The notes under the pieces: generated by a model | What the model saw: only the letters and a program-made list of their open reading frames with translations | Told to the model about the DNA's origin: nothing | The model's database searches: none | Position numbers and translations under genes: made by a program | Assembly (NCBI GenBank): GCA_947179485.1 | Contig: OX359245.1 | Span: 74,511,067-74,575,066, forward strand | From: Allacma fusca | Lineage: Eukaryota > Arthropoda > Collembola > Symphypleona > Sminthuridae | Reading direction: 5' to 3' | DNA length: 64,000 nucleotides | In this document: one piece after another, positions 29,320 to 63,086 of the stretch | How the letters are laid out: every line of letters begins with the position of its first letter | Position numbering within the stretch: the first letter of the stretch is position 1

Positions 29320-32300
29320 ATGTCCAGTCCGGATTCAAAAGAAATTGAGTTAATTTCGCAGGTTTGTACAGTTTAGTACAGAGCTGCGTTCATGTCAAGT
29401 TATTTTAGACAGCTTGACTTGAACTTGAACTTGAAAAAATTGTCTAAACGAGGTATCCATACTTACACTTGATTAATCAAGTTTCTCAAGCAACTTGAGT
29501 AAGTTCATTTTATAGAACCTGTTCAAAGTCAAGTTATTTTAAATAACTTGGCTTGAACTTGAACTTGTCTTGAACTTGACTTGAACTTGACTTGAACTTG
29601 AACTTGAAAAAATTATCTAAACGAGGTATCCATACTTACACTTGATTAATCAAGTTTCTCAAGCAACTTGAGTATTCAGTAAGTTCATTTTATAGAACTT
29701 GAACACAACTTGACGTTTAAGTTGGACACATAACTTTATTTGAATTTGATTATTCAAGTATTTGTTTCGCAAATAAACAAATAATCTTAGAAATTTCGTC
29801 CGCAATTATTGCAGGTAATAATGATTAGGTTGTAATTAGGAAAAACTAAGTGGCATGCGGAATCCTTAAGTTTAAAATTACTAAAAGGTTTAAAATACTT
29901 GATCAAATAACTGTAAACATTGTAGTCTAATCTAATTTACTAATTTTCACTACTAAGCGGTTAGCAATCATATTATTGGCCTGTTCACATTAGTGTTGCA
30001 CTCATCTGGTGATTGCAACCAACCGTCTTCGTCTTCGTCTATAGGTGTAATACGAATTTGAGATTCAAATTTCCGCACGCTTTTTTATGGGCTGAGCCAG
30101 CAATAACTGGCTAAATAATTTATTAAAATTATTTTGTTTAAATTAAAAAAAATATTGAAGCATTATACATTAGCAAGAGCGGCGACATTGCCACGGGCAG
30201 CCGTCTACCAACAAGACGACCCACTCTTTCAAATTATAAGAACGAATTATTTTAAAAAAATCATTAAAGCAAATTTAAATTTAAAAATCATTTTACCGTA
30301 TGTTAGTCTACAATTTTACTAGGGTTGTGCTACTATGATGTATTTGCACACAACTATTTACTGTCTGCCCTATTTACATGCCTCGCTGAGCTGTGCAGTG
30401 CTCTTCCTTATAAAACAAGAAGTCGGAAATTTTAATCATTCCACGCTTTCAAAGTATGGAAACAGGGCACAAGAATTATTCTTGACCTCGACCACTGGGC
30501 ATCGTGGAGGCGGCATTGGAATAAAAACAAACACAAAGATGCCATTATTATGTTAATCGACGCCCAATATAGTTTTTATGGGGATGCAATGATGTCACTA
30601 ATTAGGCAATGCCTACATTGCTTTTCACTGAGTAAAACTCAAGTTATACTTAAGTTTTATTCAAGTACTTCCATTCAGTGTGCTTGAACTTGACTTGATT
30701 TTGTAATCAAGTAATAAATTATTAACTTGTACTTGAATTTAAAAATTCAAATTAAAATATAATTATAATTTCACTTGAAATTGATGTTCAAGTTTCTAGT
30801 TACAAAATCGTCTGCACTTGACTTGACTTGACACGAGCTTAAACTGTTCCAGTTTTACTTGAACTTGAACTGTTCCACTTTTACTTGAACTTGAACTGTT
30901 CAAGTTTTACTTGAACTTGAACTGTTCCAGTTTTACTTGAACTTGAACTGTTCAAGTTTTACTTGAACTTGAACTGTTCCAGTTTTACTTGAACTTGAAC
31001 TGTTCAATGTTTTACTTGAACTTGAACGCAGCTCTGGTTTCGTACCCATGCTAAAGATTTTAATCAGTAGAGGACCTTTTATATGACAGAATTAAATTTG
31101 GATTCGTACGTCAAACTTTCAGTTTTAAATGAACTTGTATGTACATGTTGTGTAATCCGTAAACTATAGTTTCGGCAGCGGGTGTCAGACCTAAACCTGA
31201 AAGGGAGATTTTTAGATGATCATGATCTTCTTCGTTGGATTCGGGGTAAGTTGATTTCAATAACTTATACCTCTAGCCAAATGATAGATTACGGTCTCTA
31301 TCAATTCTCAGTTTTAAATTTAAAATTCAACCCTCAATTTTCCAGCCAGGAATCATAACTTGGATCAAGCGGAGAAGATGATTCGAGAGGTATTTATTTG
31401 AACATTCTTTAAAAATCTTGAAGAACTACAAGCTCTATAATTTGACTTTCTAACTGTTCCTTATCAATCAAGTCCATCAAATGGAGAGAAAACTACGACA
31501 TTGACAACATTCTAACCTGGAACCCACCTGAGAGATTTTTAAAAGAACTGCCCCTGGAGTTTCTGGGCTATGACAATGAGAACTCTCCTGGTAAAAATTA
31601 ATATGGTAGCACCTGTGTTATGGAAATTGGGGCAAGAAATGCATAGCCCAGTTCATGCGATAGGCATTAATTCCAGAAATACATATATCAGGAGGTTTTT
31701 TGCAAGTCGGATTTTGCTTGTCTAATTTTGACTCTTTGTTATTTAACAGTGGTGGTAGCGCCATATGGGAAGTGGGATCTGAAGAAATGTGCGGACTTAG
31801 GGGAGAAAGAAGAATTTGTAAAATACTGCGACCAACTCTTTGAATTTTTACTTAGTAAAATGGAAGGAAAGAAGAAACCAAACGGGGACCCCGTGACTCA
31901 GTTCGTGATTATCCTAGACTTTAAAGGATTAGCATACAGAACATTAGCCAGTGTAGGAGGTTAGTTTTTCCAAAACATAGGTCATGTAAATTCAAGTAAG
32001 GATAAACTAGACCCATGTACTATGTCCACAGACACTCACGCATGTCCAATGTCCATGCTGCTGTAATCAGTGCAAAGTAATTCTATAATGTGAATATACC
32101 AAATTTACAGCGGTCGACATGTCCTTAAAAGCAGTTCGGAGCTTTGAAGCCAATCAACCTGAAACATTGAAAGCTATGTATCAGATTAACAGTAAGTTTA
32201 TTGCATTTATTGTGTGTAGTAGAAAGTATAGATTATAATTTCTATCAGGATTAGTGGTCAAACTAGTTCAGTTTGGTTCATAAAATTCAGTTCAGTTAGC

Positions 32301-35300
32301 TATTGTTCGGTTCAGTTCAGTTCAGTTCTCTCTATGAACTGAAACTGAACTGGACTGAATCGAAAATCAACATTTCAGTTCAGTTAGCTATTCTTCGGTA
32401 AATGAATTCTTGGCTGAATATGTATAATTATACTTACATATCGTCGGTGTAACTTCCTAACCGGCTAAAGTAAAAAATGCTTAGAATACAGACCGGCTAT
32501 TTAGCGCTGTCGCTCAATACTCACAACAGCCATAATTCCCCCATTTCCCTTAACTTGACCACACCTTCCACTCCCCTTACACTAATCCCCACGTACGTAC
32601 TACCATACGTACTACATCTATACTCTCCATCCCATTATTTCCCCTCCACTTCCCCTCCACCTCCAGTCCACTTCCTTTCCCCTCCATTTCCACACCACTT
32701 AACCTCCACCTCACATTATATTACACTCCCCACCACTTACCCTCCGCTTACCCCTCAATTACATTCCCCTCCACTTGCCCTTCAATTACATTCCCCTCCA
32801 CTTCCCGTCCGCTTACCCTTCAATTACATTCCCCTCCACTTTCCCTCCACTTTCTTTTCATTTTCCCTCAACTTCCCTCCACTTTCCCTCCAGTTCCCCT
32901 TCAATTATATACTCCTCCACTTAACCTACAATTACATACCCCTCCACTTTCCCTCCACTCAACCTACAATAACATACCCCTCCACTTTCCCTCCACTCAA
33001 CCTACAATAACATACCCCTCCACTTTCCCTCCACTCAACCTACAATTACATACCCCTCCACTTTCCCTCCACTCAACCTACAATTACATACCCCTCCACT
33101 TTCCCTCCACTCAACCTACAATTGCATACCCCTCCACTTTCCCTCCACTTCCCCTTCATTTAAATACTGAGAGGAGAAGTGGAGGGGAAGTGTAGGGGTT
33201 GAGTATTTAAAGGGGAAGTGGAGGAAAAGTGGTGGGGTTATGTATTTGAAATAGAAGTGGAGGGTAAGTGGAGGGGTTGAGTATTTAAAGGGGAAGTGGA
33301 GGGAAAGTGGAGGAAAAGTGGTGGGGTTATGTATTTGAAATGGAGTAGAGGGTAAGTGGAAGGGTTGAGTATTTAAAGGGGAAGTAGAGGGAAAGTGGAG
33401 GAAAAGTGGTGGGGTTATGTATTTGAAATGGAGTAAAGGGTAAGTGGAGGTGTTGAGTATTTAAAGGGGAAGTGGAGGGAAAGGGGAGGAAAAGTGGTGT
33501 GGTTATGTATTTGAAATGGATGTGGAGGGAAAGTGGAGGAAAAGTGGTGGGGTTATGTATTTGAAATAGAGTAAAGGGTAAGTGGAGATGTTGAGTATTT
33601 AAAGGGGAAGTGGAGGGAAAGTGGAGGAAAATTGGTGGGGTTATGTATTTGAAATGGAGTGGATGGTAAGTGGAGAGGTTGAGTATTTAAAGGGGATGTG
33701 GAGGGAATGTGGAGGGAAAGTGGTGGGGTTATGTATTTGAAATGGAAGTGGAGGGTAAGTGGAGGGGTTGAGCATTTAAAGGGGAAGTGGAGGGAAAGGG
33801 GAGAAAAAGTGGTGTGCTTATGTATTTGAAATGGATGTGGAGGGAAAGTGGAGGAAAAGTGGTGGGGTTATGTATTTGAAATGGAGTGGATGGTAAGTGG
33901 AGAGGTTGAGTATTTAAAGGGGATGTGGAGGAAAAGTGGTGGGGTTATGTATTTGAAATGGAGTGGATGGTAAGTGGAGGGGTTGAGTATTTAAAGGGGA
34001 AGTGGAGGGAAAGTGGTGGGGTTATGTATTTGAAATGGAGTAAAGGGTAAGTGGAGGTGTTAAGTATTTAAAGGGGAAGTGGAGGGAAAGTGGAGGAAAA
34101 GTGGTGGGGTTATGTATTTGAAATGGAGTGGATGGTAAGTGGAGAGGTTGAGTATTTAAAGGGGAAGTGGAGGGAAAGTGGAGGAAAAGTGGTGGGGTTA
34201 TGTATTTGAAATGGAAGTGGAGGGTAAGTGGAGGGGTTGAGCATTTAAAGGGGAAGTGGAGGGAAAGGGGAGGAAAAGTGGTGGGGTTATGTATTTGAAA
34301 TGGAAGTGGAGGGTAAGTGGAGGGGTTGAGGGAAGTGGAGGGAAAGGGGAGGAAAAGTGGTGGGGTTATGTATTTGAAATGGATGTGGAGGGAAAGTGGA
34401 GGAAAAGTGGTGGGGTTATGTATTTGAAATGGAAGTGGTAAGAAAGTGGAGGGGTTGAGTATTTGAAGGGGAAGTGGAGGGGTTGAGTATTTGAAGGGGA
34501 AGTGGAGGGGAAGAGGAGGCGAAGTGGAGGGTAGTGGAGGGAAGTTAAGGGTAGTGGTTTCGAAGTGGACTGGAAGTAGAAGGGAATTGTGGGATAGTGG
34601 AGGTAAACTCCACTCCACTTACATGATACACTGCAAAGGGGAATTATGGCCGGGTTTCACTTTAGAGTTTCTAGCGGAAGCGCTATAGCCGGTTTTCATT
34701 TTAGGTATTTTAAATTATAGCCGGTTAGGAAGTTTAGCCGACGATATACAGATTTTTTAATTAACGTGTACACAGTTCTTTGTATCTCATTTAATCTGAT
34801 TTTAAATATGTTCAATATAGTACTGTTCTTGCACTGCAAATGCAATCACATTATACGTAGATATTCCTTAAAAATCCGAATTCCACTCGATGAATCGAGT
34901 CCATGTGGTGAGCGAAGCGATATAAGGTGAGTGAGCATTTGTGCAATGCGTTAGGGTGAACTGGGCAAACGTACTTATTAACTTCGTGTTTTGGGATTGT
35001 GTAGAATCGTCATCGAAATAACAAGATGGGTATTTTATGATTAATATCGTGTTCGAGCGTTGAGTTCCACCAGTGTCCAACGTATGGGCGATTATTTCCA
35101 AAATTTAAAAAATCTATTAAGTAAAAGTAGTGGTCCCATGCGTGTAGGGCACATAGCGTAAAAGTAATAGTGGAGAGAAACGCTGCTACCAGTCCACTAG
35201 TGGTCGGAACAATTCAATTCAATTCAAAATTTACAATTCAATCTAGTTTGAATACTGAACTGGATTAAAATTTGTGTTTCAATTCGGTTCAGTAAGAAGC

Positions 35301-37100
35301 AATTCAATTCAATTCAGTTCACTCTATGAACTGAACTGAATTGTAAACCATTTGGTTCGCTGGGCATATTTAAATACTGCAAAGGTGGCTAGGGTGGCGA
35401 GTCAGCTAAGGCAGCTGACCATCTCTCCTTACCCTTTTTATTGTATTACGTTAAGCTGATTTAAAAAATGCAAAATTTTGGAAAAAATAAAATTTTGATA
35501 ATTTTGGAAAAAATTAAGCTAGTAGTACTGACTGGTACGTGTAAAAAAATCCATTGAAATCGGTGGAACAGTTAGTCGTTTTGGATTTTTTTACGTACGA
35601 ACACACATTACGATTTCCACCAATAAAGAATAACTGCTCCAAGAGAGTGGCCTAAAGAATGTTCACAAAAAGTTTGAACAAAATTGGTTCGGAGGAAAGC
35701 GTCGAGACAAACAGTTCCAAGCATCCACGGACAACACTATCTTATAAGGGGGCTGACGCCACCCTAAAAATATTAACACATTTTAATGCTGGTTTTATTG
35801 ACGCAAAGATGGTGCTAATCTTATCCTTACAATATCGGTTTTGAATGAGCCTGAAATTGGTTTTATTTGAAATTCAAAGAAAACAATTCAATTCGATTCA
35901 AAAGGTGAATTGAATTATTCGGTTCAGTAAACGATCGAATTGAATTGAAAAATCCATGAATTAAACTGAATTGTAAAATTGCAATTTAAACTGAATTGGT
36001 CCGACCACTCCAGTCCACTGCTAAAAAACGGTTTCTGATTTGGAAATTTTGGATCATGAAAATTTTGCCGAACATGTAACATACTGGTGCTTCACTGAGT
36101 TATTGAAAAATACGTTTTCAAAATTTCGAAAAATGAAACCCGTTTGGAGCATCTGCGTGTGAAACTGCATCTAATGGTAGCGGTCACATGCGTGTAGGGC
36201 CCATAGCGTGAAACTAATAGTGGAGAGAAACTAAACTACCACTCCACTGAGACGGTTCCAGTATGTCGCTTCGCTCATAAAAAGTAACAGTCAGAGATGA
36301 GAAGTGCGTCATACAGAACGACAAAAACAGGCTTTATTGTGCATGCGTAACAATCATTTCAAACGATTCAGTTCAGTTCAGTTTTACGCTGGAACTGAAC
36401 CATTCAGTTTATTTTCTGTATCGAACTGAACAAAACTTGTATGAACCAAACTGAACTGAAATGAAATTTTCAGTTTTGAACTGAACTGGTCCGATCACTA
36501 ATCAGGATGATGGTTATTTCCGAATTTTTTATTAATCTCTTCAAATCAGCCAACACGGTGTTTGCTGCAATATTTGCTCTCGTCAAGCCAATAATGTCAG
36601 CATCCACGGTTTCCAAAGTGCAAAATTTTACAAGTGATGACTCAAAATGGAAGCCCGTCCTCCATTCCCACATCCCACTGTCCGTTCTACCTCCCGTCTA
36701 CGGTGGAACCAACACTTCCTCGACTTGTGATGAGATCCTGGCAAAACCAGGAGAAGACCTGTTCGAGGAAGACGAACCACCTTTTATTGAAGTTACCGTT
36801 CCGGCAGGGGATAAATTGGACATTTGTTTCACGGTGGAGGAGGGCAACAGTACCATTAAATGGTCATTCAAAACGGACAAATACGACATCGCTTTTGCTG
36901 TTAATTGTGATGGGAAAGCGTACATTGAGAAGAATCGAGTGGATTCCCATTTGGGATTTCAAGAGGGGTCTATAACTTGTGACACACCTGGAGATTACAT
37001 CTTCACTTTTGACAACACCTACAGTCGGATGAGAGTCAAAGCCTTGACCTACAGAATTGATGTGTTTACTCCAATTGGACGTAAACAAATCTCATATTGA
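29320..37100 (+). CDS. Sec14-like protein A (CRAL-TRIO + GOLD), 7 exons, 373 aa
   Basis: Exons are 29320-29361, 31170-31245, 31346-31389, 31473-31590, 31750-31959, 32111-32191 and 36550-37100. All borders are GT-AG and the total is exactly 374 codons including the stop. Residues about 15-90 form the CRAL-TRIO N-terminal helices (FLDDHDLLRWIRARNHNLDQ, AEKMIRE). Residues about 95-250 form the lipid-binding CRAL-TRIO fold (PVTQFVIILDFKGL, FAAIFALVKPIMSA, LPPVYGGTN). The last about 110 residues form a GOLD domain (FIEVTVPAGDKLDICF to YRIDVFTP). Proteins of this type bind phosphoinositides or other small lipids in the cytosol and act in lipid transfer or signalling; the ligand here is unknown. No signal peptide is present. 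Intron 1 (1808 bp) and intron 6 (4358 bp) are swollen by transposons. An AATAAA signal follows the stop at about 37157. Confidence 0.88.
29379..31036. mobile_element. hAT-like element with CTTGAA arrays, in intron 1
   Basis: The 1658-bp element has termini CAGAGCTGCGTTCA at the left and TGAACGCAGCTCTG at the right, a 14-bp inverted repeat. Flanks are GTTTAGTA (29371-29378) and GTTTCGTA (31037-31044), an 8-bp duplication with one mismatch. Subterminal DNA on both sides consists of ACTTGA / CTTGAA tandem words (29390-29600 and 30640-31026). At the left an 85-bp internal segment (AAATTGTCTAAACGAGGTAT and onward) occurs twice (about 29434 and 29604). No transposase was found, so it is non-autonomous. 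Intron 1 of the paralogue at 44.2 kb lacks it. Confidence 0.82.
32439..34746. mobile_element. TIR element carrying a pyrimidine/purine strand-switch minisatellite
   Basis: The ends form an inverted repeat, TATCGTCGG-(2-3 variable bases)-AACTTCCTAACCGGCTA, within 32439-32468 and its complement at 34717-34746. They are flanked by TACA on both sides (32435-32438, 34747-34750), a possible 4-bp duplication. The interior from 32530 to 33165 is nearly pure pyrimidine on the plus strand (CCCCTCCACTTTCCCTCCAC, with about six tandem 38-39 bp units from 32930). From 33170 to 34615 it is nearly pure purine, with about 16 copies of a 50-90 bp unit containing GGGGTTATGTATTTGAAATG and GGAAGTGGAGGG. No gene is present; open frames here are by-products of composition. 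Confidence 0.8.
35199..36010. mobile_element. Nested hAT-like element with ATTCA arrays
   Basis: The 812-bp insert begins TAGTGGTCGGAACAATTCAA and ends TTGGTCCGACCACTC. The 8-bp duplication CAGTCCAC flanks it (35191-35198 and 36011-36018). Subterminal words are AATTCAATTC in place of the GTTCAGTT of its host element. It contains a further nested TIR element (35390-35766). Confidence 0.82.
35390..35766. mobile_element. TIR element, TAGGGTGGCG...CGCCACCCTA type
   Basis: The 377-bp segment starts TAGGGTGGCGAGTCAGC and ends GGGGGCTGACGCCACCCTA. The same ends bound the 400-bp segment at 49079-49478, and both contain the phrase CATTGAAATCGG followed by CAGTTAGT or CAGTAGTT. No clear target duplication was found and there is no coding capacity, so the superfamily is unknown. 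Confidence 0.65.
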
Positions 37101-37440: not shown

Positions 37441-37444
37441 AATT

Positions 37445-39298: not shown

Positions 39299-39789
39299 TA
39301 GTGGTCGGACCAGTTCAGTTCAAAACTGAAAATTTCAATTCAGCTCAGTTCAGTTCAGTTTGGTTCATACAAATTTTGGTTCAGTTCGATACACAAACTA
39401 AACTGAATGGTTCGGTTCCAGCGTGAAACTGAACTGAACTGAATCGTTTGGGCTGATTGTTACGCATGCAAAATAAAGCCTGTTTCTGTCGTTCTGTATG
39501 ACGAACTTCTAATCTCTGACTGTTACTTTTTAAGGAATATCTACGTAAAAAAAATGGTTGCATTTGCAGTGCAAGAACAGTACTAGATTGAACATATTTA
39601 AAATCAGATTAAAGTGGGATACAAAGAACTGTATACCCCTTATTTAAAACATCTATATATATATATATATTCAGTTCACTTTCAGTTCATAGAGAGAACT
39701 GAACCGAACCGAAGAATAGCTAACTGAACTGCAATTTTCGATTTTTCAAGCTGAATTTTACGATCCAAACTGAACTAGTCCGACCACTA
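39299..39789. mobile_element. Short hAT-like element with GTTCA arrays
   Basis: The 491-bp element begins TAGTGGTCGGACCAGTTCAG and ends CTAGTCCGACCACTA. The flanks AAGCAGGG and AATAAGGG look like an 8-bp duplication with two changes. Both subterminal regions are GTTCAGTT word arrays. It corresponds to the uninterrupted core of the 4.25 kb element at 32252-36500 in the opposite orientation. No transposase. Confidence 0.78.
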
Positions 39790-39889: not shown

Positions 39890-41797
39890 TTTATAAAACT
39901 CGTACCGTGAGACTTGACTTGATGATTTGTCGGGGATAATGACGGAGTATGCTGCAATTAATAATCGTTCACGTCACTGGATGTGTGTAATTTCGATCTT
40001 ATCGGCACGTTTTAATTACGGTGGGATCCACGTTTCTCTTTTTGAGGTATCTATAATTTATGCTCAAATATAGAGGAAAACTGTGCAAAGCACATGTGCT
40101 TGTTTGTGTGATTAATCAGTTTCTAGGTCAGTTTGAGAAGGTAATTTTCTCTCGACTGCTTGGAACATACGAACTTTCTCATCGAAATATTCTCAGGACG
40201 TAAACGGGCTTACTGTAGTGCAAGCATGCATGTGTACATGAATATGTATGCATATGCACCCACGAACTGGTGAGATCTGGGTTTTTCAAATGGGCAAGTT
40301 TTAAAGCAATTAGGCTTCTCTTTAATGTGGTATTGCTGACGGAGATGCGACAATCCAGGCAGTCCGTGAAGTCCTTTAAACCTGTTTAAAAAATGTTTTC
40401 AACAACTAAAGAAAATTTGTTTTAGGAGGAGAGCCCATATCATTTCTTCTGACCGAAAAAAATGCATGAAAAACTGGTCAAAATTCATGGTTTTGTTCAA
40501 AAATTTGAAAGATTGTTAATATAATACAATGCGTTTGAAAATACTTCCAATCTCTGGTATTTGCACGCATTATGAGCTCTGGAACATTCGACGCGACTTT
40601 GGACGCTGGAATTAGAATGTTGTAGACGTGCAGTTGCGATAACTAACATGCAGTTTTGGCTTGAGTCTTGGCGACTCGATTTTTCACTTCTTGATTTATT
40701 CGACCTTTTCCAATAATTTTCTCATCTTAGTAGCTCTGTCTAAATATAACTCAATAATATCTTGATACAAATATCCGCCTTGTTCTAATTAACTGCCAAT
40801 AACACAAAATAACTTGCCATCCAACTTTTTTTATAACTCAAATTTATAAATTGTATTAATTGTGGCTAATAAGTATCATCAGTGTGTCACACAGACTCTT
40901 TATGTAATTAGTGACAAAATACTACATTATGAAGACCTTAAGTACAAAATTTTGTTAAATCCTATTCTCCACTTCTATTTTGTTATTATTCCTCGTCTGT
41001 ATTTATTTATTTATCCTTTCTGAAACGTTTCCCTAAAAGCATATATTTTATCTACACAGTCTAAAATATATTTACTGTATGTTGTAAGGTTAAAAGGGTA
41101 TTAACAGTAATCTATATCTATTCAGAAATACTAAAAATACCGACAGATGTTTCCATCATACGGGCATGATGGCAAAAAAATCATCAAAATGTCTAAAATC
41201 TCAACGTATTCAAATACTCGAGTACAATGGTCGCGGGTACGAGTAAATGACCCCATTATACCCGTACCCAGCAGGTATATACCCATTTTGAAATCCTTGT
41301 AACCGTACCCATACCCGTATCCGCAAGCGCCATTTTGAGCCTACCGAAGTGTACCCGGGTAGTATCCGGAATTGTTCGGGTACACAAAATCTGTACCCGG
41401 GTAGTACCTATACCCGTACCCGTACCCGTTTACCCGAGTATTACCCATAGCCGTGCCGAGCACTGATATAGCTATACACCTTTCCATAATAGATGGGAAA
41501 TTGACATACTGGTTATTTTTTCGATTTAAAAGGGAACTTGCTGCTTCCTCATGAAATCACCTGCAACAAATACTTACGTGAAATTAAAAGGACTTCTATT
41601 CTTGGATGAAATTAAGTAATTATATGTTTTCAATTTTATTTCTAGGATTTTATTTGCCATCATAACTCAGAATAGGGGAATTAACATTAGAGCTAATCTA
41701 AAGGAACTTCAATTAGCTCACTCAGTCGAATTAAGCAACTCCTTGCAATCACACTAGCAGTAATATTTTTCGCCTTGTCTGTAACATTTAGGGAAAT
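39890..41797. repeat. Duplicated upstream block of the exon-1-only Sec14-like copy
   Basis: 39905-40630 matches the region upstream of the other copies (near 27150 and 58720). A TACCCG-rich insert occupies the right part (41210-41465). 41465-41797 again matches the proximal upstream DNA of the other copies, including CTCACTCAGTCGAATTAA. Nothing else was recognised. Confidence 0.55.
41213..41465. repeat. Degenerate TACCCG array
   Basis: About twenty variants of TACCCG or CGGGTA lie within 250 bp. The right edge on the minus strand begins CAGTGCTCGGCACGG, typical of a hAT terminus, and it interrupts sequence otherwise shared with paralogous upstream blocks. The left terminus was not found. Confidence 0.55.
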
Positions 41798-41839
41798 ATG
41801 TCCAGTCCAGATTCCAAAGAAATTGAGTTAATTTCTCAG
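41798..41839 (+). pseudogene. Exon-1-only copy of the Sec14-like gene
   Basis: The 42-bp exon encodes MSSPDSKEIELISQ, has an intact start codon and a GT donor, and is preceded by the conserved upstream block. The next 100 bp diverge into remnants of the nuclease-fold gene region and no further Sec14 exons follow before 44.2 kb. It is therefore an orphan first exon, perhaps still with a promoter. Confidence 0.72.
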
Positions 41840-41929
41840 GTTTGTAAACTTTAATATTCATGCCGGGGATTTTCTATTAATAAATCCTATAATTCAAAAC
41901 TATAGTAATTATTCCATAGCCGATTTTCA

Positions 41930-43200
41930 CGCGGGTAAGCTCATTTACAAATTTCCAGCTAAAGCTTGCACTAATATTGCGACCGATATCTACAGTACTC
42001 AATGTAGTGATCCCTTGTTGTATTCATTTGAAAGCTGTTGAAATTCAATACAAATAAACGTAAATGTAATGTTTTAAAATTTTTTGTTGTGAGCTAAAAT
42101 TAACGTAATTTCTTAATTTCTGTTTTTGGGAAAAAAATTTGATTTTATTTGAATTCCTTGAGCTCTGTATCCACAGTTTTTTAGCTATCAAAATGTTAAG
42201 GGTTTTTGGAGGAAATTGACTATAATAAAGCTACAATTTAGTTTTGAAGCCTAAATATTTGCACGCCGTCTCTGTTATTCCACGGAGGTGGACCAACATT
42301 GGATTATGTTTTTGAGATTTTTGCTGGCAATTGAATAAACCAGGAATTCCATTTAATGCCAACTTGTTGAGCCTTGACCCCGCCAAATTTCCAGCAGTAT
42401 GAAACTCCAAACTTTGAAAAACCGGACTGAAGTTCATATGGACGTAATGAAGATTTTTGTCGGTTAGATTGATAACATTTAGATTATTCACTTATTAACA
42501 AGACGGTGGGCAAATTTTATATATGGGGCAAGAGATAACAATAATTTATTATAGATAATTAGACGATAATTTTTATTGAACACAAATCCACCTTTGCGTC
42601 GCTCTTTATCTTGAATATACTCTTGGTATCTTTTTAATTTTGCACGGTATTCATTAATAATCCGGCCGTAATACCATGTAGATATATTGTCATCGTCACT
42701 GAGATTAACTTTTAGTTGAATAGTGAAAGTAAGGCAGTCGGATTTCAATTTTGTTTTCTTACTCGAATTTTGACAAACAAAGACTCATTTCTAACAAAGT
42801 CTGACAATAAAAGGTTATCCTAATAATTCAAGAAGTACAGATTTTCAGGGAAATAGTTGAATGCCTCCCTGGTTGTTCCACCAAATTTAATTGGAATTGA
42901 ACATCCGACAATATCAGCATTCCCTTTTTCTGGTGATTTCAGAAAAAATCCATTCTCTCCGATAAGATCGGAGTAAAAAATGTTAGATGTGTGCCAGCCC
43001 AGCTAGTATCATTTCAATTGTAATTTTTAAAATTATTTGTAGTTAACGAAAATACATGCAAGGTTTCACACGACAAGTTGAATATACAGATTTCATCTCT
43101 AGTAAATCCTAATTAAAGCTTCGAAATTCGAGATTTTTGAAAACAAATGTGGGAAATGACTCTGAAATTGAAACTACCACCAGCAAACTCATTATTATTA
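41930..43200 (-). pseudogene. Broken copy of the nuclease-fold gene pair
   Basis: The order matches 18760-16960. Remnants of the last exon of protein A (about 43190-42490, including WYYGRIINEYRAKLKR) are followed by a remnant of exon a of protein B (42480-42235, NLHYVHMNFSPVFQSL) and the start of its intron block. It is clearly broken by several changes and is a fossil of a segmental duplication. Confidence 0.7.
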
Positions 43201-43317
43201 AATATTATTTTATATAATAAATAATAGCATTCCCTAGCATCCAATCTATTAAAAGTATATCATGTATATTAAGTTGCCAGTAATTTGTACACGCATTTCA
43301 CGTATATGTTGTGAAAA

Positions 43318-43553
43318 ATTCCGGGATATTTCGGAACGGAACGGGTTCGGAACGGAAAAAGTAGCATAATACGGAATGGAACACAACCTGTAACGGAAAA
43401 AATACTTTACTCCTTTGTTCCGAACGGTGTCAGATCAAATGTTCCGATGTCCCGACAGCCGGAACGGAACCGGGAACAATATTATTTGTAGGTTTTGGAA
43501 CGGAACGGAATTTCCTACGGAACAAAAATGTTGAACACATTGGAAGCTCTACT
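43318..43553. repeat. Degenerate GGAACGG array
   Basis: Multiple variants of TTCGGAACGG and CCGAACGG occur. The right edge on the minus strand starts TAGAGCTTCCAATGTG, close to the CAGAGCTTC terminus at 63777. No proved partner end. Confidence 0.5.
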
Positions 43554-44164
43554 TCTAAGCGAAAAAAAGTGCATCAAACATTTGGTCAAAATTCATGTTT
43601 TTTTCAATAATTTGAAGTTTGTTAATTGAATACATTGCATTTTAAAATACTTCCAATCTCTGGTATTTGTACCCATTATGAGCTCTGGAAAGTTCTACGC
43701 TACTTCGGACCCTGGGAATTAGATTGTTGTGGGAGTTGTAGTTTTTGTTGTGCAAATAGTCATGCCCAGATGAGCATTAATTGCAATGTAATTATTAACA
43801 AGGTTTTTGTGCCCCATTAGGAACTTTATATAATATACACTTGGTATTTGTATGCAAGTTACATCCAATCTTATGATGAGCCTGTAAGTGTATGAATCCG
43901 GCACTTACATGTATAGCTGTACACCTTTCGATAATACAACGGAAAATGACATGCTGGTTATTTTTCCGATTTGAAAGGGAAATTGTTGCTTCGTCATGGA
44001 GTCAGCTACAACAAATAGTTACGTACAATTAAAAGTACTTCTATATTCTTGTATGTAATTGAGTAATTCTAAGTATGTTCAATCTAAGATCAAGGAATTT
44101 ATTTGCCATTACAATACTTGAAATCCAAATTAAAATTAAGCTAAAGGAACTACAATAAGCTCAC

Positions 44165-44170
44165 TCAGTC
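44165..44170 (+). promoter_or_regulatory. Possible initiator element (TCAGTC) of Sec14-like gene B
   Basis: TCAGTC lies 71-76 bp before the start codon inside a block conserved in all four copies (CTCACTCAGTCGAATTAA in three of them). The sequence and spacing fit an arthropod initiator, but this is only a suggestion; copy A has a changed version. Confidence 0.3.
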
Positions 44171-44240
44171 GAATTAAACATCTCCTTGCAATCACACTAG
44201 TCGTAATTGTTTTCGACTTGGTTGCAACATTTACGGAAAT

Positions 44241-46682: not shown

Positions 46683-48169
46683 AATTAGTGTGGCTCCTGA
46701 TATCTAAAGAATAGATACCAATAATGACATAAAATCCAATTAAAAAGAAAACAAATTGACTTCTTTCTAATTTCATTCACTCATACACCAATACTCACAA
46801 AATGTGTACCAACTCATCAGCACATATGACATCAACTACTACCATTCAACTATGAGTTAATTAAATTTTTGATACAATTCCCTTCGCGAACACGAGTAAG
46901 TAATTTCATGATAGTTTGAGTAAAAGCTAAAGTTTATAAAGATTTTAAATTTTTAATCAAATTTCTATAATATCCGTAACAATTAAATTTGAAACTGAAA
47001 TTGCATTAAATTTGAGTGACTTTTAAATAAGGAGAATGGGAAACCACCACGTAGAATGAAATCAGTCACAAGATAAAATCACTATATTGGTTAGAAGTTG
47101 GTAAAAAATACCATTGGGCTGAAAATATATGTTTACTCACATAACTCATGTGGTTAAATGAGAACGTGTCGTAGAATTACCTAAGCCCTACTTTAGAATT
47201 TCGTTCGGTTTGTATATTTAATTGAGTAAAAACTCTTGCAAAACGTATTATCCTTTCAACAAATGTCTATTCATAGATTATCACTGCAAAAGCAATATCC
47301 CGGAAACATTAAAAAAAAATCATGTTATAATTCATGCGTAATCACATTTTAACAAAGCATAAATATGTGTAAGTTAAGGTTATTTCCCAATAATTATTCC
47401 CCATTATATAGTCAAATATCGGCTAACACTACGTACAATGGAAAACTCGTTATAACGAATGGAATTTAGCTGCAAATATATAAGACTCATTTCCACATAT
47501 TGAAGGGATTCGGTGTGTATAAAATGTAATAAGAATCTGACAGATTTGTTCTTCTTGATTGTTTCACCGTGCAAAATATAATTTATGATAATTCCTACCG
47601 TTTGCTCATTTTCTATTATTATCTAATTATTGGTATACACACGCGTGAGTTTCAAGCTCGTCACCTTTTCAAATTGATCCACTGATTCTTATTCATTAAC
47701 ATTGTATTTTTCAATTTTTAAAGCGATGCACTGCTCTTGCTTATGTACTTACATTGAAAAATTTAATGGAATTATTCGTTACAATACGACGGCGGTGTTC
47801 CCTCTAATTCCAAACTTCTATTGTTATATTCTATTGTCCGGGTATAGTCTTGCTAAATGTTCTAAATTGTGTGCCAATTTGAAAATTGTGAATCCAAACA
47901 TTACATAGCTATTGATTTAGTGTTAGTCATTAATTTTCCCTCCACCACAGCATTATAACTACCAATACTATACTAACACTATGAGAATACTTGGTTGTTA
48001 TATATAATAAGTATAAGTCAACAGAGAGCTTTGATAGAAGAATTTGATAAACTAGATATAATAGATTTTAAAGAAAAAATAATAAGACATTTATTCCCCC
48101 TAAATACTGAAACATTTACTTAAACAATAACTTACTGCAGTTCGGGGTTGAATATAAACTAGAAGTTGG
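46683..48169. other. Intergenic DNA, nothing recognised
   Basis: AT-rich DNA downstream of Sec14-like gene B. No coding region, transposon terminus or repeat array could be supported. Confidence 0.4.
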
Positions 48170-50240: not shown

Positions 50241-51133
50241 TAGTACTCGGAACAGTTCAGTTCGATTCAAAATTTGCAGTTCAGTTCAGTTTGAGCAGTG
50301 AACTGAAACGAAAATTCGGTTTCGGTTCAGTTCAAGCAAAAACAGTTCAGTTCAGTTCAGTTTTACCTGATGAACTGAACTGAATCGGTGAATCAAACAA
50401 TTCAGTCGCAGTGTTTGGTAATCAATAATAATTGCGGGTGTACACACATAAAGATCCGAATTTAGTCATCCGAGTCAATCCCAGAAAAATTGATTTTTTC
50501 CCTCTTAACCTGTTCCTAATCGCATTCACCACAGCAAACAGTGCACTGGAGAATGCACAAATAATATGCTCTTGATGATGGTAATGTACACTGGAATTGC
50601 CCTATGTTTCAGAATCAACGTTTAGTAATCCGTAATAGATTGCTTCCTTTTAGCATGACATCTTTGGGCGAATTCAGTATCTACATTTTCCTTAGGATTC
50701 GTTTAAATTTTAATTTTTTTAGCTCCGTAATCAAACCAGAATTTTAAGTACTTGTTGAAGTTTTAAAGAAAATAGTTAGTGCGAACTTCTTTAGCCCCAT
50801 GTTTGGTCCGGGAACAGCAATGTCCCATATAATTATTAAAAGAACATTTTTGAAATCATAAAGTAATTAAAAAACTGTTGATTATTTGTTAATTAACTAC
50901 ACAAAATGACAAATAAGAATGTACGTTGGTAGCGACATTTCCAGCAAGGAGCCCGTTTGCAAACTGTTTGAACTGCAGTTTGCATTATACGGTTCAGTTC
51001 GATTCTAATACTGAATCGAACTGTTCAGTTCAGTTCAACAGCTGAACTGAACTGTGTTTATAATGAATCAAACTGAACTGAACTGAACCGAATCGGAATT
51101 TTTCGGTTTTGAACTGAACTGGTCCGAGTACTA
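50241..51133. mobile_element. hAT-like element with GTTCA arrays
   Basis: The 893-bp element begins TAGTACTCGGAACAGTTCAG and ends CTGGTCCGAGTACTA. It is flanked by a perfect 8-bp duplication CCGCTCCG (50233-50240 and 51134-51141). Both subterminal parts are dense in GTTCAGTT / AACTGAACTG. No transposase. Confidence 0.88.
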
Positions 51134-53548: not shown

Positions 53549-54056
53549 TACTATCGGTAATCATATAATGGCGAGTTAACATATAGGCCGGCAATTGAGT
53601 AAAGTGAAGAATGGACGGAGGGTCCCACTTCACAGTACGCAGCTATCGGGCCAGAATGGTTCTATACATGTGAATTTAAAACCTAATAAAGGAGGTATAG
53701 AAAACTCTGTAAAGCCCCCGGGCATATCGGAGTATAAACCCCAATTTTGTTTCAAGTACAAAACTACAAATGTAAATTTATGCAAGTAGCACCATTATTA
53801 TTATGAAACTCAATCAGCAATGATGACATTTATTCGTGAGGTGTAATTATCACCAGCCGCAATGATTTGATTCAATTCACGATTCACAGTATGCAATTGG
53901 ATTCATTCTTGCTAGCTGAATTGAATCGAATGATGATTCAAATCATTCAGAATGTAAACGATAGTAACAAACATTTTATTTAAGGATTTTATAATGACTA
54001 CATAAAACAGCGGAATAATATGTCCAACAGTTTCACTATCACTAACATTGTCAATG

Positions 54057-54231
54057 CAGCAAACTGTCGCTACAAGGGATACCCTTATAAGGGATTTTTT
54101 GATATAAGGGATTGGGATTTACAGCCCCGATTCACATTTACACAATTTATAACACTATGCTTTTTATAAGGGATAATGTTTATAAGGGAAAACGTTTGCA
54201 ATGAGCATTCCTTAGAGCAAAAGTTGACTGT
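54057..54231. repeat. TATAAGGGAT word array
   Basis: About six copies of TATAAGGGAT-like words lie between CAGCAAACTGTCGCTACAAG at the left and, on the minus strand, CAGTCAACTTTTGCTCTAAG at the right. The ends look like a short inverted repeat of a MITE (Tc1/pogo style ends are possible). No target duplication was proved. Confidence 0.45.
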
Positions 54232-54437
54232 AACATTAGCAAATTCGATTTGCATACCCAGCTAATTAATTGTTCTATTATGACCTAAATTGGACCGTTG
54301 GTAAATGCCGTAATAATAATAATTGATGTATGTAATATATAAAAATTATTATTTACGAAATAATTAATTAGTCCATTTTCCAACAATGTCTCTTAGCGTG
54401 CAAAGCTTTTAATGTGACGCGTTACTAGCTGCATTTT

Positions 54438-54668
54438 TTAGCAAGATATGCAAACGAATTCGTTGCACGTGAATGTGATATAATTTATTTGTTTAGTCAT
54501 CGTTTGCGCATATTTCGCTACCTCTGGGACTGCTTTCATCGAATTCATTACCACGCCGTTCCATACGTGAGCCAAACAAAACGTTTGTTCGTACTTATTT
54601 AATCCTGCCTTCTCGGCAAAATCGTCGCCAAATGCCTTGACCATGTTGCTACCACCATCTGTAACCAC
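54438..54668 (-). pseudogene. hAT transposase catalytic-domain fragment
   Basis: The frame reads VTDGGSNMVKAFGDDF, then CLAHVWNGVVMNSMK. This matches the hAT pattern of an Asp in VTDnGsNMvkAF followed by the C..H motif (CxAHxxN). Flanking sequence does not continue in frame, so this is a remnant. Confidence 0.72.
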
Positions 54669-55422
54669 GTATCTAATCTAAACTCCTACTCCCCCTGATA
54701 TTAACACACTTCTTAAAACCCAATTAAGCATGCATATGTTTGTATTATTGAACCTTGTGTAGAATTTCCAAGTTTTCCATCTCAATAATGACTCTCAGAC
54801 GGATGTTATCCCACGTATGGCGGCTAACTAACCGGATAACAGCAACAGTTCTTCTTTTAAGAGATAAATCTGAATCAAAATAGCAAACTTGAATGCATAA
54901 TACCGAGTCCAGGTATCAAGTGCTCCAGCAATTGAGAATTAGCGTGAGGTCAGTTACGTTTTTGAACGAGCATCTTAAAAAGGGGTACACCTACGAGAAA
55001 TAATATTATTTTGCATGAAGTGAAACATACTAGAGGCGCTATCCCCTTCAAAGCCTATCTGTTATTCACTATCATATCTTCTCATGTAGTCTCAAACTTG
55101 TGTGCAAAGACTTTGTAGCTTAATGGCCGAACGAAAGGTTGCAGAATTTGTAATGACCTTCTACGAAATTTGTCGTTTAAAGATGCAAACGAAATCCCAG
55201 GAGTAATTATAAAATTTGTAAAAGTATCATCAAATAATTGTTGTATGCGATGATAACGTGGAAACTGGTTTCTAGCTTGAACGTTCCTTCTAACATAAGC
55301 TTCAATATGATGATACTGTGTACATATGTAACCATCCGTTAGAAACCAGAATAAATATAATAGGATATATTAAGTGATAAGTGTACTGGTTTGTAAAATG
55401 CATGTTTATGCGAAGTCAAACA

Positions 55423-55981
55423 TTATAGTTTTAAAACATTCTTTTTGAAATGTCCCGTTATTCTGGATGGTGCTGAATCATGACCACATACTTCAGTATC
55501 ACAATATGAACACAACACCTTGCAAGGTCTTTTGTTAATCTTCCGGCTGTCTCCATTTCGTGGTTCCGGGCTGGCATTATGCCCAAGATATTCGCAGTAA
55601 TATTCAAGGTCTGCCGGTAACTTCAAATTAGGTTGTTTTCTAATATGACTTCTACTGGCTGTTTCTTGGTCCTTGTTGAAGAAACTGACTTTCCAAACAA
55701 GAACTTTCAGATAGAACTGATTGATTTGAAGAGGTACTTGATGTCGACTTTCGTTTCCGCTTCTGGATAATTCGGGGCCGTAACCTCGTTCTTGACGTTG
55801 ACGTATTGTTTGCATCATTTCCCTCAGTTTCACTAAAACCCTTACTAGCGCCACTAAAGCTTTCCTCAACATTATTAGCGGTCACCGCTGATTCAAAGTT
55901 GGTACCAAGAATATCTCGCAGATATGCTTCACTAATACTTTCAATCTCGACAACTTGTGATTTCATGTCAACTGTGCTCAT
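55423..55981 (-). pseudogene. hAT transposase N-terminal part with BED-type zinc finger
   Basis: It starts at 55981 (MSTVDMKSQVVEIESISE). A Ser/Thr-rich segment follows and the reading frame changes near 55720. The second frame gives a BED-like finger CKVLCSYCDTEVCGHDSAPS ending ITGHFKKN (about 55520-55425). BED finger followed by the catalytic fragment 0.75 kb downstream fits a decayed hAT transposase on the minus strand. The C-terminal dimerisation region was not found here. Confidence 0.65.
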
Positions 55982-56760
55982 TTTTTCGGTTTCAATAACC
56001 AGTCTTATTATACAATTTTATCCGTGGAAGTGAATGATATTCTATTGTTGCAATCGATCAGTTGCTAAAGTTGCTGAAGTGCCTACTTATCAACTTCCCA
56101 CAGAACAGTGTACTACCTGTAATTATTCTTACTCTAGACTTGTCACTCAAATAATTGCTTAATATAACATTACCAATACAAATCAAGTAAAGTGTTTATT
56201 ATTTTGTACCTTTGTAGTGTCTATGACTGACAGTGCCAATTGCATCATCAGGTCATATGCATGTCATGCATATGACCGGATTTTACGGGCATGCACGTGT
56301 CAGTTTTATGAACGAGCTGGCCTATGTACATTTTCACTGTTAACTATCCGAAATATGTATTCTGTTCGAATTCATTATTTTTTATTTATGACTTTCTGTA
56401 CCTTGGATATCATTATAAGGGCGTACTCACATAAAACATGTTCCTTCCGTAACCGTAAATATTTTAGTCGCCTTCACGGAAAGAACTAAACGGAAACAAC
56501 ATTCCAACCGTTTACAAACAGACGTCTCACATTCACACTCACGTAAGTAATCAAAACAAATTGGGGTTTATACTCCGATATGCCCGGGGGCTTTACAGAG
56601 GTTTCTGTACCTCCTTTTTTAGCTTTATAAATTCACATATATGCAACCATTCTGGCCCAAAAGATACATACTGTGAAGTGGGACCGTCCGTCCATTCCAC
56701 ACATTACTCAACTGCCGGCCTGTATGTTAACTCGCCATCATATGACTAATACCCAAAGTA

Positions 56761-58640: not shown

Positions 58641-58699
58641 TGAATTCTTGGATAGTTTTCATATATCTACAGCTTATTAGTTTTTAAACTACGAACTCA

Positions 58700-60006
58700 A
58701 TTTTAATACTACTGGTACCGTGTGACTCAGCTTGATGAGTTGTCGGGGTTACTGACAAATAATGTATCAATTAACAATCGTCCACGTCCCTGGATGCGTG
58801 TAATTTCTATCTTATCAGCACGTTTTAATTACCGTGGAATCCACAATTCTCTTGTCCAGGTATGTGTTCAAATATAGTGGAGAGCTGTGCAAAACACATG
58901 AGCTTGTTTGTGTGACCAATCAGTTTCTAGTTCAGGATGAGAAGGTAATTTTCTCTCGCCTGATTGGAACAGACGAGCTTGAAAATATTCTCAGGATGTA
59001 AATGCGGGTTCACTGTAGTGCAAGCAGGAATATGTACATACATATGGATGGATAGGCACACGCGAACTTTTGAGATCTGGGTTTTTTAAATAGATATTAG
59101 AAATGACTGTAAGTTTTAAAGCAATTATACTTCTCTCAAATGAGGTATTACTGAACGAGGTGCGACAACCCAGTCAGATTGTATTTCGGTTTTTAGAATT
59201 TCACAATCGCTGCAAATTTTTTTCGCGATATTTTGAAGCCCAGCGAAAATAAACGTGTTAAAAAATATTTAACAACTTCATCTAAAGAAAATTGTTTTAG
59301 GAGGAGAGCCTAGTCTCAAATGATTTCTTCTGGGCGAAAAATAGTGAGTCAAAAACTATAATTGAATACAATGCATTTTAAAACATTTATAATCTCTGGT
59401 TTTTGCACCACGATGAGCTCTGGAAAGTTCTACGCGATTTATGACTCTGGGAATCAGAATGTTGTAGACGTTGTAGTTTTTATTGTGTAAAAAGTCATGC
59501 CTGGAACTAGATTAAAAATAATTGCAATGTGATTATTAACAAGGTTTGTGTTGCAAGCAGCATACGTATGCTGATCCCATTAGGAAGCTTATATAATATG
59601 CACCTGGCATTTGCATGCAAGTTACATCCATGCTCATGATGAGCCGGTAAGTTCAGAAATCCGGCACTTACATATAAACCTGTACACCTTTCCATAAAAG
59701 AAGGGAAATTGACATACTGGTTATTTTTTCGATCTAAAAGGGAACTTGCTGCATCCTCATGGAATCAGCTACAACAAATACATGCATGCAATTAAAAGGA
59801 CTTCTATTCTTGTATGCAATTAAGTAATTATTATTTGTTTGTTCAATCAAAGATCTGGGATTTTGTTTGCCATCATGATACGGGGAATTAACATCAGAGC
59901 TAATATAAAGGAGCTTCAATTAGCTCACTCAGTCGAATTAAGCAACTCCTTGCAATCACACTAGTAGTAGCAATTTTTTCGGCTTGTCTGTAACAATTAT
60001 GGAAAT
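58700..60006. repeat. Duplicated upstream block of the Sec14-like pseudogene
   Basis: It is colinear with the blocks upstream of the other copies (27150-29319, 39905-41797, 43560-44240). It includes GTTGTCGGGG, the GGTAATTTTCTCTCG segment and the proximal CTCACTCAGTCGAATTAA block. No gene was seen within it. Confidence 0.6.
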
Positions 60007-60705
60007 ATATCCAGTTCAGATTCCAAAGAAATTGAGTTAATTTTTAGGTTTGTAAAGTTTAGTATTTATGCTGGGGATTTTATGTTCTGTGGTAGCATTA
60101 AATTTGGATCGTGCGTCAAATGTTTCAGTTTGAAATTAAATTTATAATAATTTATAATCCCCAAACTAAAGTTTTGCAACGGGTGGCAGACTTAAACCTA
60201 AAGGGAAGATTTGCGGAAGATCATGATCTTCTTCGTTGGATTCGGGGTAAGTTCAATTCAGTATAAATTCTTGCTTCAGCCAAATGATAGACTATGACGT
60301 CAAACAATTCTCATTTTTAAATGTACAATAATTCAACTTTCAATTTTCCAGCAAGGATTCACGACTTGGATCAAGCGGAGAAGATGATTCGAGAGGTTTA
60401 TTTTGAAATTCTTGCAAACTCTTGGGAAGCTACAAACTCTAATAATTTGACTTTCAAACTGTTCCTTATCAATAAAGTCAATCAACCTGAAATGTTGAAA
60501 GCAATGTATGAGATTAACTAAGCTTCATCTCAACTGTAATATTATAAATATAGGAAAATGTAGATTATAATTTCTAGAGAAGGATAGTTATTTTTCAACT
60601 TTTTGATTAATCCTTTCAAAACTAATGTGGTTTTTGCTGCAATATTTGCTCTCATGAAGCCGCTAATGTCAGCATCAACGGCTTCCAAGGCACATGTTTT
60701 AAACT
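60007..60705 (+). pseudogene. Collapsed Sec14-like pseudogene
   Basis: Exon 1 has ATA in place of the start ATG and a one-base deletion near its end (60007-60047). Exons 2 (to about 60246) and 3 (about 60352-60396, DLDQAEKMIRE) are recognisable. Then the start of exon 4 runs straight into the end of exon 6 at a shared AATCAA word (about 60478-60485), so the rest of exon 4, intron 4, exon 5, intron 5 and the start of exon 6 are gone. A stop follows directly. The start of exon 7 persists (CTCATGAAGCCGCTAATGTC near 60650) and breaks off near 60700 before the GOLD part. Confidence 0.82.
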
Positions 60706-61995: not shown

Positions 61996-62350
61996 TTAAT
62001 TACGGGTTTTACATGTTTTTATTCGTCGTAAAGGTGCAAATGATGTCTCAGCCGTCGCGGAGCTGACTGGGAGCACAATAAGAATTTTATAATTAGTAGA
62101 GCTCCTCTCTACTAGTTCATTCCCATGAATCATAGTCATTTGGAGATTAAGTCTCTCAGAATTGAACTGATACAAATCTGATAAAGCATCTACTTGATCC
62201 TCCCGGGATTTTGGTTCTAATTGATTCCAGTTAAGCAATATGTTCACTAACTCGTTGATCCCGGACTGATCAAAACGACGCTTAAGTTCCGCAACAACAA
62301 GGTCGATCGAATTGTTGAATATGTTTTGGTACTTTACTTCTACAGTTGTA
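61996..62350 (-). pseudogene. hAT transposase C-terminal (dimerisation) fragment
   Basis: The minus-strand frame runs through DLVVAELKRRFDQSGINELV and reaches LPVSSATAETSFAPLRRIKT. The latter is the hallmark hAT C-terminal dimerisation motif (LPvSsAtaERsFSaLrRIKt). The N-terminal and catalytic parts are absent. It is a separate copy from the hAT remnants at 54-56 kb. Confidence 0.78.
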
Positions 62351-62739
62351 AAGATAGGTGAATTATTTTTTCCATACCTCTTTGGGTTCGTTGAGCACGT
62401 TCTAAATGAAAACAGTCACAGGCTTCCTCCATGCGATTCCAAAGCCCTTTGAAGACGTTCTGAACTTTATGCTTTCTAAAATGGTCAATGTACACATTCT
62501 AAGCTTGAACAATGCCACTGACGGTAGATCGCTAGTGTGTAAAAATTTTAAGAGACATTAATAATTTTGCGATGTTGTGGTGATACGAGGCCCTCTAACC
62601 GTCCGTCTCTTGGAACAAGGGGGCTGAAGCCTAACTTTTGAAAATTCTTCATTGTCTACAAATAAAACTTTCCTGTGCTTCAATTCATAGCCATCATTCC
62701 ACCGTATGTACTCTCTACTACCTAAACCTTAAGGTTCTC

Positions 62740-63086
62740 CTGGGGTCGGATTTATGTGGGAATACGGGAAGAATCTTCCCAGGGAAAACAATTTTTCAGC
62801 AGGGAAATTTTCAAACAGGATTACAAACAGGGATTGTCAAATCTGTAGAACTTTTTTTTTGGACAGGGATTTTCGAAATTGTTGAGGTGTTTTACTGGAA
62901 AAAATTTTGGCACCAGGGATTTTTGAAATTGTTGACCTTTTTTCCAGCATTTTTGAGTTTGTTGGGGTGTATTACGAAAATTATTTTGTCAACAGGGAGT
63001 TTTAAACTTGACTCGAACCGTGACACCATAACCACCAGGCACAATAAAAAAATTCTTCCAGGGAGATTTACAAAATTCGACCCTTG
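62740..63086. mobile_element. Short hAT-like element filled with CAGGGATTTT words
   Basis: The 347-bp element has left end CTGGGGTCGGATTT and right end (minus strand) CAAGGGTCGAATTT. It is flanked by a perfect 8-bp duplication AGGTTCTC (62732-62739 and 63087-63094). The interior is about six degenerate copies of CAGGGATTTT with AAATTGT spacers. No transposase. Confidence 0.8.

Follow-up and report, generated by a model that had tools for sequence, protein, structure and literature searches.

We analysed a 64,000-nucleotide stretch of the springtail Allacma fusca genome (hereafter the window; C1:74511067-74575066 of a 392,743,791-bp assembly in 91 contigs, which all genome-wide pattern searches below cover), in which a sequence-only reading had described six elements with hAT-type ends (E1 to E6), each with subterminal or internal DNA built of one short degenerate word. 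Very probably, such word arrays are subterminal transposase-binding repeats of hAT transposons that have radiated into many words within one genome; as part of this best explanation, and with the same high probability, the window elements are mostly non-autonomous hATs and their arrays are subterminal repeats. All six elements were re-read and are present with the ends and words first described, and four of the six 8-bp target site duplications (TSDs) are perfect. The earlier proposal that arrays and words co-evolve with different transposases is likewise supported, as far as can be inferred from sequence, because transposase-bearing hATs of the same genome have arrays of their own and word similarity tracks transposase similarity. 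Subterminal binding repeats of hATs are already known; the radiation of words in one genome and the concerted switch described below are new as far as the literature was searched. Titles and abstract starts in the open-licence literature described neither a genome with many word-coded hAT families nor a concerted switch, and in the same literature we found no account of specificity divergence between transposon lineages sharing a genome, or of springtail hAT words.

Many Transposase-Bearing hAT Elements Carry Their Own Word Arrays

A genome search with the hAT dimerisation domain (PF05699) gave 860 candidates, and all of the 150 that were scored matched. Fifty transposase loci were sampled and grouped by BLAST (the first 30) or by eye (the next 20). 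As judged by eye, about 18 of the 31 resulting groups have a word array of their own, and these 18 are the families of the word/transposase comparison given below. The words found between the stop codon and the 3′ terminus were GTAGAGTAGAATAG (L011 group), GTAGTGGGTAG (L013), GAAGGAAGG (L015, L016 and L033), AAGGCA (L017), TAGGAAGG/AGGCA (L023), GTGAGGGC/GAGCGTGAG (L022), GAGTTCGAGGCTGAG (L024 group), TTGAACTGAAC and AATTGAA (L034, L027), CGGATAGGAT (L032, L109), GAGTAAGTA (L094), CGGTTCGG (L099), AACCGTTTTTAACCG (L100, L106) and GGACTGAGACTGA (L103). When nine loci were extended upstream, both ends, a TSD and arrays were recovered in three (L022, 3766 bp; L023, 3767 bp; L034, 4452 bp), and the 5′ end was not found for the other six. 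The TSDs of L022, L034 and a further element, L149, are perfect and that of L023 has one mismatch, and the hAT dimerisation domain lies inside the ends of all four, so that transposase-bearing hATs with word arrays do exist in this genome.

L149 was met in the search for the end pattern of E5, where one pair of ends 3 kb apart brackets a PF05699 match. This element, 3028 bp long, is flanked by the TSD CCCCTCAC and encodes a hAT dimerisation domain (1.8e-13); each end has an AGTTCA array, and 12 of the 16 AGTTCA sites in the element lie no more than 300 bp from an end. The left 657 bp and right 229 bp of E5 align to the ends of L149, matching 604 bp of it on the left (78%) and 221 bp on the right (87%), so that E5 is an internal-deletion derivative of a transposase-bearing hAT that uses the same word.

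Word Similarity Tracks Transposase Similarity

Similarity of the dimerisation domains and similarity of array 5-mers were correlated across the 18 families (r = 0.78) and across 19 families when L149 was included (r = 0.72), and in either case none of 20,000 permutations reached the observed value. In the 13 of the 18 families with enough sequence, the arrays gave r = 0.73 (0 of 5,000 permutations), whereas the non-coding DNA just before the array gave r = −0.11 (4,000 of 5,000).

The arrays are terminal, contrary to the possibility that they lie mainly away from the termini. Word sites within 350 bp of an end numbered 25 of 25 in L128 (5.3 expected under uniformity), 29 of 30 in L032 (6.2), 19 of 22 in L034 (3.5), 21 of 25 in L023 (4.6) and 26 of 37 in L022 (6.9), counts that use word patterns chosen by eye and are uninformative for elements shorter than about 1 kb such as E6 and the short members of the TAGTGGTCGG family (hereafter TAG). 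Elements hold 16 to 37 word copies; TAG elements have 16 to 19 sites, and E6 has seven copies of CAGGGA(TTTT) along its whole length.

The two ends of an element also carry the same word. Across 12 families, the 5-mer cosine between the ends of a family's own pair was 0.73, against 0.22 with ends of other families (0 of 100,000 permutations), and the own pair was the best match in 11 of the 12, the exception being L034, which was matched by one of the TAG subfamilies, TAG-G. Note that for L016 and L026 this comparison uses incomplete 5′ arrays, and that the 5′ piece of L032 was placed at the first word site.

Most Sampled Family Copies Are Flanked by 8-bp Duplications

A blind scan of the window for 11-bp terminal inverted repeats (TIRs) with 8-bp TSDs gave 28 matches, against 20-25 with shifted flanks, and was dropped; as such a scan has no power, proof must come from family copies. 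Terminal patterns recurred genome-wide (forward + reverse matches, reversed-pattern control in brackets) 430 + 438 times (0) for the TAGTGGTCGG type, 397 + 363 (0) for CAGAGCTGCGTTCA, 102 + 108 (0) for TAGTACTCGG, 562 + 555 (1) for CAGTGCTCGGCACGG, 101 + 100 (0) for CAGGGTGGCTTGATTTAAAT and 172 + 155 (0) for CAGAGCTTCTGCCGGG. The E6 family gave at least 46 matches genome-wide, with 40 of 1208 candidates scored.

In most sampled copies, 8-bp duplications were found, contrary to the absence that would speak against the earlier proposal. The samples of TAG, E1 and the CAGTGC family are the first listed places, all on C1, and the E6 copies lie on five contigs. For TAG, where loci were chosen because both exact termini were listed or present, 22 loci gave 25 end pairings, of which two join ends of different members of a nested pair, and thus 23 elements; TSDs with at most one mismatch flanked 21 of these (18 perfect and three with one mismatch), against 0 of 588 swapped flanks, and the two exceptions, L003 and L115, have five mismatches each. 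Thirty end loci were sampled for E1, and 12 elements had both ends inside one locus; nine of these have TSDs with at most one mismatch (eight perfect, one with one mismatch) and three have two to four mismatches, against 0 of 132 swapped flanks. Among three E1 pairs spanning two loci, outside these 12, one has a perfect TSD and two have none (L043/L044 and L062/L063). All nine CAGTGC pairs have at most one mismatch (seven perfect), against three or more in 72 swapped flanks. Of the 46 E6 matches, 12 were fetched, and 7 of these 12 have a duplication at the termini (six perfect and one with one mismatch) and five have none found; note that the copies L076 and L077 have almost identical flanks.

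Terminal inverted repeats of hATs start with CA or TA, and short TIRs with such starts are present in the examined elements. The hAT target duplication has the consensus nTnnnnAn; in the duplications found here, T at position 2 and A at position 7 occur in 9 of 9 and 7 of 9 for E1, in 12 of 21 and 13 of 21 for TAG, and in 8 of 9 and 4 of 9 for CAGTGC (counted by eye).

Three Sister Words at One Terminus

Homologous TAG arrays carry three words (AATTC, GATTC and AGTTC) that differ site by site. The 23 TAG elements comprise 17 of a TAG-A subfamily (CAATTCA), four TAG-G (CAGTTCAG) and two TAG-C (CGATTC; L003 and L004, 96% alike), and genome-wide the end patterns of TAG-C gave 250 and 220 matches. 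A strict rule of one word per family fails, because the words of TAG-G elements, L149 and L034 are nearly identical although their termini differ. The possibility that one family carries unrelated words was borne out in part: three words do stand at the TAGTGGTCGG terminus, but they are sister words in homologous arrays.

The consensus ends of TAG-A and TAG-C are colinear, scoring 176.5 and 144.5 where 200 block shuffles reached at most 120.5 and 102.5. For TAG-A and TAG-G the colinearity is weaker than between TAG-A and TAG-C; the flipped alignment was used (105 against a maximum of 99.5, a narrow excess, and 129 against 100), as the unflipped one gave 88.5 and 99.5, below the shuffle maxima of 95.0 and 105.0. 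From TAG-A to TAG-C, the 30 homologous nnTTC sites comprised 13 AATTC to GATTC, five AGTTC to AATTC, five unchanged AATTC and seven others. From TAG-A to flipped TAG-G, the 24 sites comprised nine AATTC to AGTTC, four AATTC to GGTTC, three unchanged AGTTC and eight others. At AATTC sites, a change of the first letter only was seen 13 times toward TAG-C versus once toward TAG-G, and of the second letter only 0 versus nine times (Fisher p = 1.2e-5, omitting four double changes, and with sites inside one array partly dependent). Repeats can bias an alignment of such arrays toward pairing word on word, and because sites were counted only where TTC was kept in both sequences, these counts are no measure of core conservation.

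Comparison with Known hAT Systems and Proposed Mechanism

In Ac/Ds, Tag1 and Tol2, the transposase binds short repeats inside the terminal repeats, and short non-autonomous copies keep those repeats. Their motifs are other than those found here, and dense arrays of many different words within one genome are not known to us in these systems. PMC3143072 mentions the subterminal repeats of all three.

There is a likeness in motif with Herves, a hAT of Anopheles gambiae, whose transposase binds CG/AATTCAT, present in several copies at both ends; a tetramer of CGATTCAT suffices for binding, and CGTTCAT is a weaker variant (PMC3143072). The TAG-A (CAATTCA) and TAG-C (CGATTCA) words are the first seven letters of this motif, and TAG-G (AGTTCA) has GTTCA in common with the weaker variant (PMC3143072). 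Unlike Herves, TAG elements have 16-19 sites each, and one TIR family has three sister words. In Hermes, a hAT of Musca, several protomers use their BED domains to contact short subterminal repeats close to the tip, and several of these domains contribute to the left end (PMC10368747). L013 resembles Hermes in the hAT dimerisation region, matching 6dww at 1.4e-7. Hermes differs in its word; either of its ends has about five repeats within the first 55 bp, and no BED domain binds the right one (PMC10368747). CGGBP-type BED/Hermes domains, which are related hAT-derived DNA-binding domains, recognise a wide variety of motifs, and for four hAT proteins the motif corresponds to subterminal sequence in the protein's own Repbase model (PMC8097297). 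That work relies on binding arrays and deals mostly with host genes from different species (PMC8097297), whereas here many hAT lineages of one genome are compared, the words are read from the ends, and a word switch occurs within one family.

By analogy with this published hAT biochemistry, we infer that the words are bound by transposases. The arrays would be clustered binding sites for the N-terminal domain, a BED-type finger, of the transposase that mobilises the family, and many sites beside a short terminal repeat would enable a multimeric transposase to tell the right ends from the rest of the genomic DNA. Each transposase lineage would tend to read its own word, with ends, non-autonomous copies and transposase keyed together; when specificity drifts, the word would change letter by letter at most sites of both ends, and a change of transposase specificity would presumably drive the word switch. 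A further step, in which the array acts as a lineage password, and DNA-binding domains and words change together, including a concerted switch between sister subfamilies with the same terminus, is offered tentatively, as a possibility that in our judgement falls somewhat short of probable.

If this is true, the range of non-autonomous elements open to a transposase would depend on the word. A switch might then release a lineage from its own parasites or from silencing by the host, and the genome would be a readable protein-to-word code table for BED-type fingers. The ends of co-resident hAT families are natural samples of the likely binding site, lying beside the gene for the presumed binder, so that the recognition code of BED fingers, and how transposons change the key across both ends and all copies, become testable.

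Evidence Against and Alternative Explanations

Several observations weigh against transposase-read words of this kind. No array was seen in about 13 other transposase groups, including L009, L019-L021, L025, L028, L030, L093/L095, L102, L105 and L108. No transposase-bearing partner was seen in the listed places for E1, E6, CAGTGC and the three TAGTGGTCGG subfamilies, so that their hAT membership rests on ends, TSDs and words. The 3.46-kb E1 copy L047/L048, which has a perfect TSD, was first considered as a possible autonomous element, but no transposase was seen in the sequence read, which covers all but a 419-bp middle piece (L081). The long copies L128 (CAGTGC) and L147 (TAG-C) also have perfect TSDs, and no transposase was recognised among their listed reading frames. 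The BED zinc finger passed the Pfam cut-off only in L034 (2.7e-7) and was weak or absent in the nine other N-terminal pieces scanned, with L013 (0.015), L032 (0.09) and L149 (0.13) below the cut-off and no zf-BED match in L022, L026, L011, L016 and L023, where cysteine-histidine patterns are readable by eye.

An array score above z = 10 was obtained in 25 of 50 transposase 3′ flanks, some of them reflecting arrays of neighbours, in 3 of 30 control coding stretches (all of one family, L019-L021) and in 5 of 30 stretches of window positions 1-28,500, of which two are arrays at 15.5 and 22 kb. The score misses irregularly spaced arrays (L016, 8.8; L100, 7.9; L017, 4.2), those of L034-L037 lie mostly outside the scanned stretch, and it catches neighbours' or later repeats (L018, L023, L031, L091, L098 and L106); it was therefore not used as a rate of word-coded families. 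The correlations above are Mantel tests on families with a visible array, with array limits set by eye, and with one family per close clade (11 lineages) r fell to 0.43, which 69 of 5,000 permutations reached, indicating that most of the signal lies among close relatives. Convergent words occur with distant transposases, as in L149 and L034 (protein similarity 0.21, word similarity 0.67), in L149 with L027, and in L099 with L100 and L106. Finally, the TAG-C consensus was built from two copies.

It is improbable that the words are bound instead by some host protein (a silencer, say, or a domesticated BED/CGGBP-type factor) and that the arrays are kept for that purpose, as word similarity follows the element's own transposase and repeats of this sort serve as transposase sites in known hATs (PMC3143072, PMC10368747), even though hAT-derived host proteins with many different motifs exist (PMC8097297). 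We consider it slightly less probable again that the arrays have no binding role and are neutral low-complexity DNA that arose within the elements through slippage during replication or through short tandem duplications. Clear tandem units in some arrays, namely 7.3 copies of a 26-bp unit in E1 and the long array of L015, indicate that local duplication does add copies. Against a neutral origin, 8 of 12 families have one word at both ends in arrays that are not colinear, the spacing is irregular, both orientations occur in many families, and the word follows the transposase across families where the adjacent non-coding DNA does not.

The ends were compared for colinearity by block shuffling. 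They are not colinear in L016, L022, L023, L026, L032, L034, E1 and E6, where 65-222 of 300 shuffles reach the score; they are colinear in TAG-C (0 of 300), TAG-A (7-9 of 300) and E5 (2 of 300), borderline in the CAGTGC element L128 (17 of 300) and mixed in TAG-G (L123, 22 of 300; E4, 152 of 300). The least probable account is that an element's second end arose by inverted duplication of its first, and that families share words only by common descent of that DNA. It is contradicted by the eight non-colinear families, by spacer DNA that lost similarity where the words keep it and by TAG words that changed at homologous sites, although such copying could hold for TAG elements, E5 and perhaps CAGTGC. 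The same word in non-colinear arrays at two ends points to one reader of both ends and not to an inverted copy.

Elements and Other Features of the Window

Coordinates are collected in Table 1. The start of E3 is one base left of the 35199 given in the sequence-only reading, and E3, lying within E2 with its own TSD, inserted later than E2. Three arrays that had been described as unpaired end in termini that recur genome-wide, at 41.2-41.5 kb (CAGTGC), 15.5 kb (CAGGGTGG) and 63.8 kb (CAGAGCTTC), with TSD support covering the CAGTGC family only; no second end was noticed within the window for the CAGTGC array. Other arrays in the window have the words CCCGAA (22 kb), GGAACGG, GGGACGG (51 kb) and TCGAGTCGG.

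Table 1. Positions of the elements, word arrays and target site duplications in the window.
Feature	Position	Strand	Ends, word and family	TSD	TSD match
E1, non-autonomous hAT-like element	29379..31036	.	TIR CAGAGCTGCGTTCA; word TTCAAG/CTTGAA	GTTTAGTA (29371-29378) / GTTTCGTA (31037-31044)	7/8
E1 left word array (limits approximate)	29393..29700	.	CTTGAA		
E1 right word array (limits approximate)	30620..31022	.	includes CTTGAACTGTTCCAGTTTTACTTGAA tandem units		
E2, with nested insertions	32252..36500	.	TAGTGGTC-ended; GTTCA (TAG-G) subfamily	ATCAGGAT (32244-32251 / 36501-36508)	8/8
E3, nested in E2	35198..36010	.	TAGTGGTCGG element; ATTCA (TAG-A) subfamily	CAGTCCAC (35190-35197 / 36011-36018)	8/8 with start at 35198, last TIR base changed
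E4	39299..39789	.	TAGTGGTCGG element; GTTCA (TAG-G) subfamily	AAGCAGGG / AATAAGGG	6/8
E5	50241..51133	.	TAGTACTCGG element; GTTCA word	CCGCTCCG	8/8
E6, short element	62740..63086	.	family TIR CAGGGGTCGGAT	AGGTTCTC	8/8
One end of the CAGTGCTCGGCACGG (CAGTGC) family	41180..41465	-	TACCCG word array		
Word array ending in CAGGGTGGCTTGATTTAAAT	15515..15652	-	word GATTTAAATC; end found 201 times in genome		
Word array starting with CAGAGCTTCTGCCGGGG	63777..64000	+	word GGGACGGGGACA; end found 327 times in genome; runs off window		

Within E2, positions 32420-34770 form a block with inverted ends, TATCGTCGGTGTAACTTCCTAACCGGCTA and TAGCCGGTTAGGAAGTTTAGCCGACGATA, around a large minisatellite that switches strand, from CCCTCCACTT to AAGTGGAGGG. 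As the end sequence of this block also stands beside the element in L003, it looks like another mobile family. Outside the window, the 3.46-kb E1 copy L047/L048 (C1:1269397-1275856) seems to hold a further nested element, whose word is TCATGTTCAAG and which has an end beginning with CAGAGATGATCGCATGG; the copy is flanked by open frames of another mobile element. At C5:36927200-36932448 (L023, L088), a transposase-bearing hAT with the word TAGGAAGG apparently lies inside a TAG-C element. Arrays beside the transposase loci L091 and L101, with the words GGTCTGGTCC and TATAGGC, are probably the ends of other families.

Positions 53569-56737 of the window hold a degenerate element with inverted repeats of about 200 bp (TGGCGAGTTAACATA...) and a 7/8 duplication (TCATATAA/TCATATGA), at the ends of which no word array was seen. 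Its broken frames resemble, by eye, a BED finger and a hAT catalytic stretch; it was considered as the window's own hAT and rejected, as Pfam gave no such match.

E1 and E2 are both intronic, in a copy of a Sec14-like gene (gene name and introns read by eye), and Sec14-like paralogues within the window are without E1 and E2 and align across the joined flanks, i.e., they provide empty sites. Tandem copies of this gene for a Sec14-like lipid-binding protein were recognised by eye at 29300-37100, 41750-46700 and 59900-60700, the last being partial, and the blocks flanking them, at about 37.9-40 kb and 57.8-59.5 kb, also look duplicated.

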